A model generated the notes under the pieces. It ran no database searches. It was not told where the DNA came from and saw only the letters and a list, made by a program, of their open reading frames with translations. Shown piece by piece: positions 15,526 to 18,726 of a stretch of DNA of 31,314 nucleotides. Position numbers and translations under genes: made by a program. Position 1 is the first letter of the stretch. Every line of letters starts with the position of its first letter. The stretch spans positions 1 to 31,314 of IMG/VR virus record IMGVR_UViG_3300035216_000518. The stretch is one strand, 5' to 3'. This DNA is from a virus.

Positions 15526-15676
15526 TGGTTGCTTGCTTCCTTAAGGTGTTATTATAGATCACAACTCTGCCGTGACGGTGAGTAAAGACCAGTTCGTCAT
15601 CTGGACCCCAGCACAACTCTTCATACAGAGCATTTAATTTATACATGTCTTCGTATAGTTGATTTGGATTTGGCAT
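15518..15676 (-). CDS. Small protein of unknown function (52 aa) after gp55
   Basis: A short frame begins with ATG at 15674-15676, sharing its A with the last base of the gp55 stop (TAATG), and ends with TGA at 15518-15520, 8 nt inside the next gene. The product starts MPNPNQLYEDMYKLNALYEE and contains WGPDDELVFTHRHGRVVIYN. The first half looks helical and the second like a beta-hairpin. No family is recognised. The exact junctions at both ends and the protein-like composition make it a likely gene. Confidence 0.72.
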   Translation of the reverse strand: MPNPNQLYEDMYKLNALYEELCWGPDDELVFTHRHGRVVIYNNTLRKQATNE

Positions 15677-16164
15677 TAACGATTCATTTTAATTTCAATG
15701 TTTTCTTTAATACTACCCATATCAGAATATGAAGCATTCATACTTTGCATATCACCAGTATATGAATCTGTATGCATTACTTCATCGTATCCTGAACGCT
15801 CAAGAATTTTATTTTTAATTTCTAATTGCTTCTTTTCTTTTTGAATTCTTCTCAAAAATGCGTAGTAGATAATTTGAGTAAAGTAAGCAAAAGGGTTAGA
15901 AGACTTTTCTGGATTAAAGTTGTCAATGTACTGTAGGCAGTTCTCAATACCATCACAAATCATGTCCTCACGGAACATGTAGTTGACAAAGTTAGGTTTA
16001 TATGATAGGTGTGTAGCGATCTTAAGAAAACACTCCCCAATATAATTTGGAACACGAGGACGTGGTTGATCCTTTTCTTTTGCTGCAATCACTTTGTTCC
16101 GATAGACAGAGACCGCCTCTAGAAATTCTTTGTTATTGACGTAATACTCTGTCTTTTTTTTCAT
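15676..16164 (-). CDS. 55: Late sigma factor gp55
   Basis: A 162-residue divergent sigma factor (T4 gp55 has 185). The region-2-like segment FNPEKSSNPFAYFTQIIYYA with the preceding NYMFREDMICDGIENCLQYI is the conserved core that binds host RNA polymerase and the -10 of late promoters. The tail QKEKKQLEIKNKILERSG is charged. It would recognise the NATAAATA sites in this window, aided in T4 by gp45 and gp33; gp33 is not seen here. The gene has a sigma-70-type promoter overlapping a perfect palindrome, and a Shine-Dalgarno-like AAGGA 9 nt before its ATG at 16162-16164. The call is secure. Confidence 0.93.
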   Translation of the reverse strand: MKKKTEYYVNNKEFLEAVSVYRNKVIAAKEKDQPRPRVPNYIGECFLKIATHLSYKPNFVNYMFREDMICDGIENCLQYIDNFNPEKSSNPFAYFTQIIYYAFLRRIQKEKKQLEIKNKILERSGYDEVMHTDSYTGDMQSMNASYSDMGSIKENIEIKMNR

Positions 16165-16191
16165 GAGAACTTTTCCTTTTCGGATACTATT

Positions 16192-16220
16192 AGTTTAGTT
16201 CATCTTATGAATATTGTCAA
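16192..16220 (-). promoter_or_regulatory. Promoter for gp55
   Basis: TTGACA (16220-16215), a perfect -35, is followed by exactly 17 nt and TAAACT (16197-16192, 4 of 6). Transcription should start near 16185, about 20 nt before the ATG. The -35 element lies in one arm of a palindrome, so it may be controlled by a DNA-binding protein. This promoter would time the onset of late transcription. Confidence 0.65.
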
Positions 16221-16230
16221 GGCTTGACAA
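16214..16230. promoter_or_regulatory. Perfect 17-bp palindrome over the gp55 -35 box
   Basis: TTGTCAAG-G-CTTGACAA is a perfect inverted repeat with 8-bp arms and a single central base. Each arm contains a consensus -35 hexamer, one for each strand. The minus-strand one serves gp55. The plus-strand one (16224-16229) is followed after 17 nt by TAGGAT (16247-16252), a possible antisense promoter. The palindrome is AT-rich with almost no loop, so it is more likely an operator than an RNA hairpin. Confidence 0.6.
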
Positions 16231-16284
16231 ATCCTGAAAACCTGAGTAGGATAACTATGTTAGAGTTCAGAAGGGTTGTAGCTC

Positions 16285-16695
16285 TTAGCTTCTATTAAAT
16301 AGATCTTCTAAAGATTTTTTAGTTTCTTTAATAGAACCTAAGTTTCCCATTGTACGAGAAAACTTATGAGGTTCATATGAATTTTTAAATGAACTAACTT
16401 GCTTAATATGTTTTGCTACTGTATCAGAATAAAATTTTTCAATACGTTTATCTTCAACTTGTGTCATGGTTATAATATGTTGTTTAGGTAAAACAAACAT
16501 ATGATCAAAAGTTGAATGAATCCATTCCGTTAAAGAAAATCCATTAATTTTTAAATTGTTTCTTTGTTGATCAACAAAGGTTACCTCCATAGGATTTTCT
16601 AATACAAGACTATCATCATCAGGCATGTAAGAAACTTTTGAAATTATTTCTTCGCCTGTAATTAACTTCATAGTTGCTAAAAATTCTTCTTCCAT
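16285..16695 (-). CDS. Sm-like (LSm-fold) protein C
   Basis: A 136-residue protein with the start MKLITGEEIISKVSYMPDDD, then LVLENPMEVTF, a TEWIH motif and the strand HIITMTQVEDKRIEKFYSD. This agrees with Sm-like proteins known from cyanophages, and its parts align with the two Sm-like genes at 2901-3510. A basic, polar tail of about 40 residues follows. Its ATG at 16693-16695 lies 2 nt after the uvsW stop, so it is co-expressed with uvsW. It is the last gene before the gp55 promoter. RNA binding is the usual Sm role but is not shown here. Confidence 0.82.
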   Translation of the reverse strand: MEEEFLATMKLITGEEIISKVSYMPDDDSLVLENPMEVTFVDQQRNNLKINGFSLTEWIHSTFDHMFVLPKQHIITMTQVEDKRIEKFYSDTVAKHIKQVSSFKNSYEPHKFSRTMGNLGSIKETKKSLEDLFNRS

Positions 16696-16697
16696 AT

Positions 16698-18167
16698 TTA
16701 ACTTGATCTAAGGTTTACTTTTATAACCTCATACTTAAAGTTCTCATCATTATAAATGTTGACTCTCTCATTCAAATGTCTAAGGGTGTAGTTCTGACCG
16801 CCAATGTCATCAGCGATATCGTATAAGGTTGCGATGTCTTTGCCTTCGCCTTTCCTTAGCACACGTCCAATTGATTGGAGATTACGGATGCGCGACTTAC
16901 TAGGGGATGCAAAAATAATATTGTGTAGTCTTTTAATATTAATGCCTGTAGAGAATGTACCATACGAAGCAAGGATTATGGCGTTGTTCTCAGTCTCTGT
17001 AATCTGACGAACTGATTCTCTGTCTTCAACATCAGTGCCACCATGAACAAAAAATAGTTTTCGTTCGGGGTCTATGTTACTATTTATCAATTCCAAAAGT
17101 GGTTCCCCATGCTTTTCAATGTAGTTGAATAATATAAGAGTGTTCCCTTCAATATCTTTTACTAGATTTTTAATAAGATTATTTCTGCCACGATGCTCTA
17201 CAATGTAGTCCATTTCATCATGATATGATTCAAAGTGTTGCGGAGCATGTTTACAAAGTAAAATTTTGATTCTAAACTTGCTAAGGTAACCTGACTTAAT
17301 TAGATCATCTGTTTTAGTAACCTGTTCACAATCACCAAACAATCCTTCCAACACCCACTTATGTGTCTTGGTGCCGTCTAGGGTGCCAGTAAAACCAAAC
17401 CTATACTTTGCGTTATGCAACTTAGTCATGATTCCTGTGAGGGACTTTGACTTAAATAGGTGTGCTTCATCACCGATAACACAGTCAATATCATCAAAGT
17501 ATCTTTTTGGGAACTTGTAGATGGATTGCCAAGTGGAAATAACAATTGGTTTGTCTGTATTTTTATCCTTGCCTGAATATATCTTATGCACATGATCGTC
17601 AGCATTCCATCCGTAGTCGTTAAAGTCATTGACCATCTGTTCTACGAGGGACGTAGTAGGGACGATGATGAGCGTCTTCTTGTTGGTAGCAGTATAATAT
17701 CTGACGAGGGAGTAGATCATCAAAGATTTACCAGACCCGGTAGGAGAAAGAAGTAACTTCCTATTATTTTTAATTGCTTCGTAAACTGCACGATACTGAT
17801 ACACTCTAGGTTTGATTTCAGATCGTGTAATTTTATTCATGAATGTTTCAATGCCTGCGTATGAAACAAAGTCATTAGTTTCTTTAACATCTCCATACCA
17901 ATCATTCTTTTCATACTCAATGTTGTACTGGCGTTCACCTGCCCACACTTGTAGGTGCTTCATCAGACCACCATAAAGGTCGCCCGTACCAGGAGAGTAC
18001 AGACGAATGGTTCCATCCCAGTATTTGTATCTGGGGTTTTTCTTCAGGAACTTTGCTTCGGGAACTTCAAACGAAAAGTAATCTGAGAGTTCCTGATGTA
18101 CATGAGGTTCTTCAGAATGGATAGTAATATATACTTCGTTTTTCTTTTTAATAATTAAATTAGACAT
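16698..18167 (-). CDS. uvsW: UvsW helicase
   Basis: A superfamily 2 helicase of about 489 residues (T4 UvsW has 503). Motif I SPTGSGKS is at about 141-148, motif II GDEAH at 232-236, and motif III FTGTLDG is close behind. The C-terminal motifs FVHGGTD, ASYGTFSTGINIK and QSIGRVLRKGEG are present. UvsW unwinds R-loops and branched DNA, and in T4 switches replication from origin to recombination mode. A TTG at 18182 would add 5 residues; I prefer the ATG at 18165-18167, which overlaps the stop of the preceding oxygenase gene by 8 nt. A NATAAATA octamer inside the gene (17081-17088) is probably coincidental. The call is secure. Confidence 0.96.
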   Translation of the reverse strand: MSNLIIKKKNEVYITIHSEEPHVHQELSDYFSFEVPEAKFLKKNPRYKYWDGTIRLYSPGTGDLYGGLMKHLQVWAGERQYNIEYEKNDWYGDVKETNDFVSYAGIETFMNKITRSEIKPRVYQYRAVYEAIKNNRKLLLSPTGSGKSLMIYSLVRYYTATNKKTLIIVPTTSLVEQMVNDFNDYGWNADDHVHKIYSGKDKNTDKPIVISTWQSIYKFPKRYFDDIDCVIGDEAHLFKSKSLTGIMTKLHNAKYRFGFTGTLDGTKTHKWVLEGLFGDCEQVTKTDDLIKSGYLSKFRIKILLCKHAPQHFESYHDEMDYIVEHRGRNNLIKNLVKDIEGNTLILFNYIEKHGEPLLELINSNIDPERKLFFVHGGTDVEDRESVRQITETENNAIILASYGTFSTGINIKRLHNIIFASPSKSRIRNLQSIGRVLRKGEGKDIATLYDIADDIGGQNYTLRHLNERVNIYNDENFKYEVIKVNLRSS

Positions 18168-18726
18168 AAGGTCCGCCACCAAACCAACAGACTAAAGATT
18201 TTCTAACTCCTGATGTTATTGGATTAACTTTGTGCCAAGTATCTGATGGGAAAAATATAACTGTTCCTTTAGGTTCTTTAAATTTTACACTTCTCTCTTT
18301 TGCCAAAGGTCCAAAGAGTTCTAGTTTTAATTCACCACCCTCATACTCTTCGGGATCATTTAAAAATATTGTAAGACTTATTTTTCTAATAAAGGTGTCT
18401 GAATACATACCCATTTGTTGAGATTTTAAAAATCCTTGAGCATCAACATGCCAATCATAATGATCTCCTTCGTTGTAAAGAGTATATTGAATACCTTCAC
18501 TTCCTAAAATTTGAAGATTCCATTCTGCATTTACATTTGCTTGATGGCAAAGAGTTAGCAGTAAAGATTTAAGTTCGGAATTTTCAATCCAATTAATTTT
18601 ACAACTCCTTAAATCTTGATTACTTGCCTCACCTTCTTGAAAATTATTTTCTACGATTGCATTTTCAATTAATGAAAGATCGTGATCATTCAATTTATAT
18701 TTAACAAGGGGATTACCAAATTTCAT
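18160..18726 (-). CDS. 2OG-Fe(II) oxygenase (prolyl-hydroxylase-like)
   Basis: A 188-residue enzyme with the double-stranded beta-helix motifs: YNEGDHYDWHVDAQG carries the HxD pair, RKISLTIFLNDPEEYEGGEL is the conserved strand region, and GTVIFFPSDTWHKVNP supplies the distal His. RKSLVCWFGG supplies the 2-oxoglutarate-binding Arg. It resembles PKHD-type and P4H-like hydroxylases, which are common in cyanophages. The substrate is unknown. The ATG at 18724-18726 joins the uvsY stop as TAATG; a GTG at 18753 is less likely. It sits between the recombination genes uvsY and uvsW. Confidence 0.9.
   Translation of the reverse strand: MKFGNPLVKYKLNDHDLSLIENAIVENNFQEGEASNQDLRSCKINWIENSELKSLLLTLCHQANVNAEWNLQILGSEGIQYTLYNEGDHYDWHVDAQGFLKSQQMGMYSDTFIRKISLTIFLNDPEEYEGGELKLELFGPLAKERSVKFKEPKGTVIFFPSDTWHKVNPITSGVRKSLVCWFGGGPYV

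Follow-up and report, generated by a model that had tools for sequence, protein, structure and literature searches.

The window analysed here is the whole 31,314-base stretch at positions 1 to 31,314 of IMG/VR record IMGVR_UViG_3300035216_000518. Its closest annotated relatives are T4-like Synechococcus phages, for example S-CAM4 and ACG-2014e/i/j, and S-CAM4 is the closest complete one. The minus strand carries the gene for the late sigma factor gp55 (15676-16164, 162 aa; phrog_234, E 1.6e-67), the gene for an Sm-like protein that databases list under "methylamine utilization" (16285-16695; phrog_471, E 1.9e-33) and, next beyond it, the uvsW helicase gene (16698-18182; phrog_16, E 3.9e-123). 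The Sm-like product scores 28.6 bits against Pfam Sm_like (PF16243), slightly below the cut-off of 29.4, and has a weak match to PDB 3by7. Between the gp55 start (16164) and the Sm-like stop (16285) lies a perfect 17-bp palindrome, TTGTCAAG-G-CTTGACAA (16214-16230), formed by two abutting -35 hexamers. It stands exactly where a sequence-only reading of this DNA had placed it, with one consensus -35 on each strand.

Both promoters proposed in that reading are present. The gp55 promoter, on the minus strand, has a TTGACA -35 at 16220-16215 and a TAAACT -10 at 16197-16192, and its start is predicted from the spacing near 16185. The plus-strand promoter combines TTGACA at 16224-16229 with TAGGAT at 16247-16252, a -10 also found in relatives L006, L007, L009, L022 and L034, and has its predicted start near 16259. 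The spacer is 17 nt in both. The plus-strand promoter points across the Sm-like gene and is antisense to both this gene and uvsW. A T4 late promoter (TATAAATA at -10 and no -35) was ruled out for gp55, because its -10 is TAAACT and is accompanied by a full TTGACA -35. The two -35 hexamers are 3 bp apart and the predicted starts 74 bp apart; from the established geometry of the holoenzyme, two polymerases at such a spacing would clash. Both promoters score 10/12, which places them in the top five of the 26 promoter-like sites counted in 8 kb. Shuffled sequences gave 30.4 such sites, so there is no excess, and a motif match by itself would be weak evidence. The antisense promoter stands out from chance because it is conserved. 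A scan with Rfam 15 gave no match at 16.2 kb, even at E 5.

We gathered 80 relatives by gp55 similarity alone, read their upstream regions and aligned the 70 non-redundant loci on the gene-strand TGTCAA; this anchor was picked by the analyst, the -10 was not. The plus-strand consensus is GGGG-c-TTGACA-a-N17-TA[GCT]AAT-AACnCTGT-nn-GGGTTcAAGGG. An antisense TTGACA-17-TAnnnT promoter lies upstream of gp55 in all 70 loci, with a spacer of 17 in 67 and of 18 in the other 3. The -35, the -10 and the box that follows are rich in information, the spacer and the sequence past about +15 poor. On the opposite strand, gp55's own promoter is TTGACA-17-TATAAT-like in most loci. The arrangement typical of sigma70-type promoters, TTGACA and a TATAAT-like hexamer about 17 nt apart, is thus kept in relatives on both strands, and the predicted antisense promoter is a conserved feature placed back-to-back with the putative sigma70-type promoter of gp55. 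The two -35 boxes are offset by 9-16 bp in 45 of the 70 loci, and a single TTGTCA(A) serves both strands in 20, so that in 65 loci they are too close for two polymerases, as in the window. Using the divergent gp55 of S-B68, 80 more distant loci were gathered; 69 carry the element, antisense and just upstream of gp55. The 11 without it (L405-L415) make up the S-B68-like clade. By eye, an antisense promoter of the form TTGACA/TTAACA-16/17-TAnnnT seems to be kept in most of these, but the box behind it is another one, about GTnAGTGTCAAC, which possibly marks a second regulator class.

When up to 3 mismatches are allowed, the palindrome has on average 0.10 matches in shuffled windows. The exact 17-bp form, with any centre base, is found in 56 IMG/VR stretches, in 22 of them directly upstream of gp55, and these 22 copies span at least three lineages (gp55 identity 62-99%). 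The window's palindrome is kept in place in close relatives (gp55 identity 91-99%) and reappears in separate lineages with gp55 identities of about 84% and 62%. The conservation anticipated by the sequence-only reading therefore holds for close relatives and two further lineages, but the spacing of the halves varies across the 70 loci, the window being the offset-10 case. Given the offsets of 9-16 bp or 0, dyad symmetry is not what is kept. The palindrome is the meeting point of the -35 boxes of two promoters and not a functional unit itself, and an operator role in its own right was rejected. Of the two roles that had been suggested for a symmetric site here, operator or competing promoter pair, the second is the best reading. 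The span originally described, 16214-16252, stops at the plus-strand -10, but the conserved element extends to about 16274. Its operator-like part is the box after this -10, which the earlier description did not include. Viral contigs unrelated to gp55 (L081, L085, L103, L119 and others) also contain this palindrome, flanked on either side by a good -10 hexamer, so divergent phage promoters may commonly be built with abutting -35 boxes.

The box, AACTATGTTAGAGTTCAG (16253-16270, plus strand), is 18 bp long, directly follows the antisense -10 and lies over the predicted antisense start. It is phage-specific: ACCTTTGTTAGGGTTGAAGAG occurs twice in S-SKS1, AACACTGTGGGGTTCA twice in S-RIM14, and AACCATGTnAGGGTTCA in S-SM1. 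Ten sites away from gp55 were taken from searches with R1, a covariance model of the element, and not from scans with the genome's own box, and the box at each was compared with the gp55 box of the same genome. The matches add up to 152, against a mean of 119.6 when genomes are permuted, and none of 20,000 permutations reached this total; in the same test the 17-nt spacers were barely genome-matched (p 0.06). S-CAM4 is an exception, as its second site matches its own gp55 box poorly (10/18). Variants common within a genome and differing between genomes are the mark of an operator for a trans-acting regulator, and this pattern points to a putative phage-encoded one; the sites of one genome presumably see the same factor. 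S-PM2, S-SKS1 and S-BM1, all recorded on host strain WH7803, have different boxes, so that the factor predicted to act on the box is more likely the phage's than the host's. Copying between sites could account for part of the matching. Pairing between the box arms, AACNN/NNGTT, exceeds that of permuted arms (z about 8, kinship ignored), and a second analysis, also ignoring kinship, agrees in three of five measures. The loop length varies from 4 to 6, which is unusual for a rigid dimer operator. Because the predicted start is inside the dyad, the box is read as a putative protein operator.

R1 has one strong match in the window (E 2.6e-13; the next is 0.15), and of 14 named cyanophage genomes 12 carry the element at gp55. 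In 11 of these, S-PM2, P-HM1, S-CAM3, S-RSM4, S-SKS1, S-BM1, S-RIM14, P-SSM2, S-SM1, S-CAM4 and Syn9, the top-scoring site lies on the antisense strand between gp55 and the Sm-like gene, while the gp55 site of P-SSM3 yields a weaker match (6.4e-5). The antisense start is predicted near 123,698 in Syn9 (DQ149023.2) and near 84,439 in S-PM2 (AJ630128), and the P-HM1 site spans 116,759-116,815, all three on the minus strand. R1 failed to reach significance at gp55 in both ACG-2014f and S-B68, and had no match in T4.

In most complete genomes there are one or two further copies of the promoter and box, which are sense-oriented and precede small-ORF, cp12 or cpeT genes; P-SSM2 has the gp55 site and no second one. 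Nine complete genomes were scanned with their own gp55 box, the sole extra condition being a TAnnnT before it. Each has 1-3 good sites, all preceded by a TTGAC-type -35 at the 17-nt distance. Several different families are represented among the genes that come first after the sense sites: a small protein of phrog_718 in Syn9, S-RIM14, S-SM1 and S-BM1, as well as CpeT in S-BM1 and a helicase in S-SKS1. A CP12-annotated gene (phrog_627) lies downstream of a site in S-SM1, and its relative does so in L147; other sense copies are in L180, L196 and L212. The antisense back-to-back layout is repeated before a DNA helicase gene in L146 (2245-2291) and before a phrog_580 gene, beside a ferrochelatase gene, in L188 (3971-4017). 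Thus, the whole module behaves as a movable unit. According to a review, cp12 is among the genes co-expressed early in Syn9 infection (PMC6359870). A role of the box as a general early promoter of Syn9 is unsupported, as this genome has two strong sites only.

We propose that a regulated antisense promoter sets the timing of the late sigma factor by competing with the gp55 promoter, a reading to which we give somewhat less than an even chance. The site would consist of two back-to-back host-type (sigma70) promoters, one driving gp55 and the other firing away from it, antisense to the Sm-like gene and uvsW. As their -35 boxes abut or are common to both, one RNA polymerase would occupy the site at a time. 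The box over the antisense start would most simply be the operator of the putative phage-encoded regulator. Operators that cover a start site usually serve repression. At early times of infection, the antisense promoter would compete with the gp55 promoter and delay gp55; the regulator would then shut the antisense promoter, freeing polymerase for the gp55 promoter, and the late sigma factor would be made. The antisense RNA may also lower Sm-like and uvsW expression. The regulation may also have the reverse sign, or an antisense RNA may act on the Sm-like gene or uvsW instead. Marine T4-like cyanophages lack motA and/or asiA (PMC5780444), so another switch is needed. The proposed circuit bears on how these phages time late transcription without the T4 middle-gene switch proteins. 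A broader version, an "antisense timer" that replaces the T4 MotA/AsiA switch, would have a phage-encoded regulator with its own operator in each phage, the antisense promoter barring polymerase from the late sigma gene in coordination with a few small-ORF, cp12 and cpeT promoters; this we find doubtful.

The competing explanations give other roles to the promoter or the box. The antisense promoter might serve to produce a cis-antisense RNA controlling the Sm-like gene, uvsW or uvsY, with competition at gp55 incidental. In every genome read it points into the Sm-like gene and uvsW, and a precedent exists in the cyanophage S-PM2, the antisense RNA CfrI at psbA, cited from Millard et al. 2010 in a passage of PMC5931967. 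The transcribed sequence is, however, unconserved past about +15, and the same layout stands before other genes in L188 and L146, so that the Sm-like and uvsW targets are not required; we regard this explanation as unlikely. That the box acts as an RNA hairpin in the transcript rather than as a DNA operator agrees with the superior pairing of AACNN/NNGTT over permuted arms, with the variable loop length and with G-U pairs that fit the plus strand. It seems improbable, because the predicted start within the loop leaves the promoter's own RNA without a 5' arm. The box also keeps the promoter's strand whichever direction the neighbouring genes run; read-through mRNA therefore cannot explain both settings, and a hairpin in such mRNA was rejected.

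A promoter that primes DNA replication would form an R-loop of the kind made by the transcript at T4 oriF, next to uvsY, to be dissolved by the adjacently encoded UvsW. A conserved promoter without an ORF, beside uvsW and uvsY, speaks for this, but GC skew has no shift at the site and elsewhere the same promoter and box stand in sense orientation to drive ordinary genes, which makes replication a very improbable purpose. The number of promoter-like matches in the region, no greater than in shuffles, would suit the view that the gp55 promoter gave rise to both the palindrome and the antisense promoter by chance. This is scarcely credible, as it is already refuted by conservation: both the box and the antisense -10, with its constant spacing, persist even in loci whose gp55 -35 lies at a different place.

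Elements of both kinds, opposed promoters and antisense RNAs, are already known, and overlapping divergent promoter pairs with an operator are well described, for example lambda PR/PRM. The cyanophage site resembles that pair in its two opposed host-type promoters, which would be mutually exclusive, and in the operator-like box that accompanies one of the two. It differs in that the -35 boxes themselves abut or are common to both promoters, one promoter is antisense without an ORF, the regulator is putative, and the phages are strictly lytic and T4-like. With T4 middle and late control (MotA/AsiA; gp55 with TATAAATA promoters) it has in common the stage of the programme and a homologous gp55, whereas the site here has full host-type -35/-10 promoters and R1 lacks a match in T4. 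CfrI likewise runs antisense in a T4-like cyanophage; however, it lies at another locus and is an observed RNA, while our promoter is read from sequence alone. The abstract of the Syn9 transcriptome study (Doron et al. 2016) reportedly describes a novel early-gene regulatory element. It is possibly of the same promoter class. Syn9 has only two strong copies of our box. Should the published motif prove identical with the box, part of the element would be known already, and the novelty would be confined to its antisense use at gp55. Transcription at this site goes unmentioned in the passages found of the P-HM2 and S-PM2 papers, and a near-universal antisense promoter with a genome-matched box at the cyanophage late sigma gene was not found in the searchable literature, which did not include Doron et al. 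2016. A nearly universal antisense promoter at the late sigma gene, together with an operator-like box that marks few other promoters, would make a concrete circuit. It can be checked in existing strand-specific RNA data from S-PM2, P-HM2 and Syn9, and the box could serve as bait for the regulator.

Further features lie along the predicted transcripts. Given the Sm-like character of the "methylamine utilization" product, the strand opposite the predicted antisense transcript may code for an RNA-binding protein. Inside uvsW, about 560-580 nt past the predicted antisense start, a weak match to a terminator-like hairpin (16815-16838, plus strand) could be the end of the antisense RNA. Within about 40 nt after three of the sense promoter copies (L147 3130-3180, L180 3178-3260 and L212 8381-8440), an ATAAATA or TAAATA was observed, which resembles a T4-type late promoter and hints at tandem early-then-late control.
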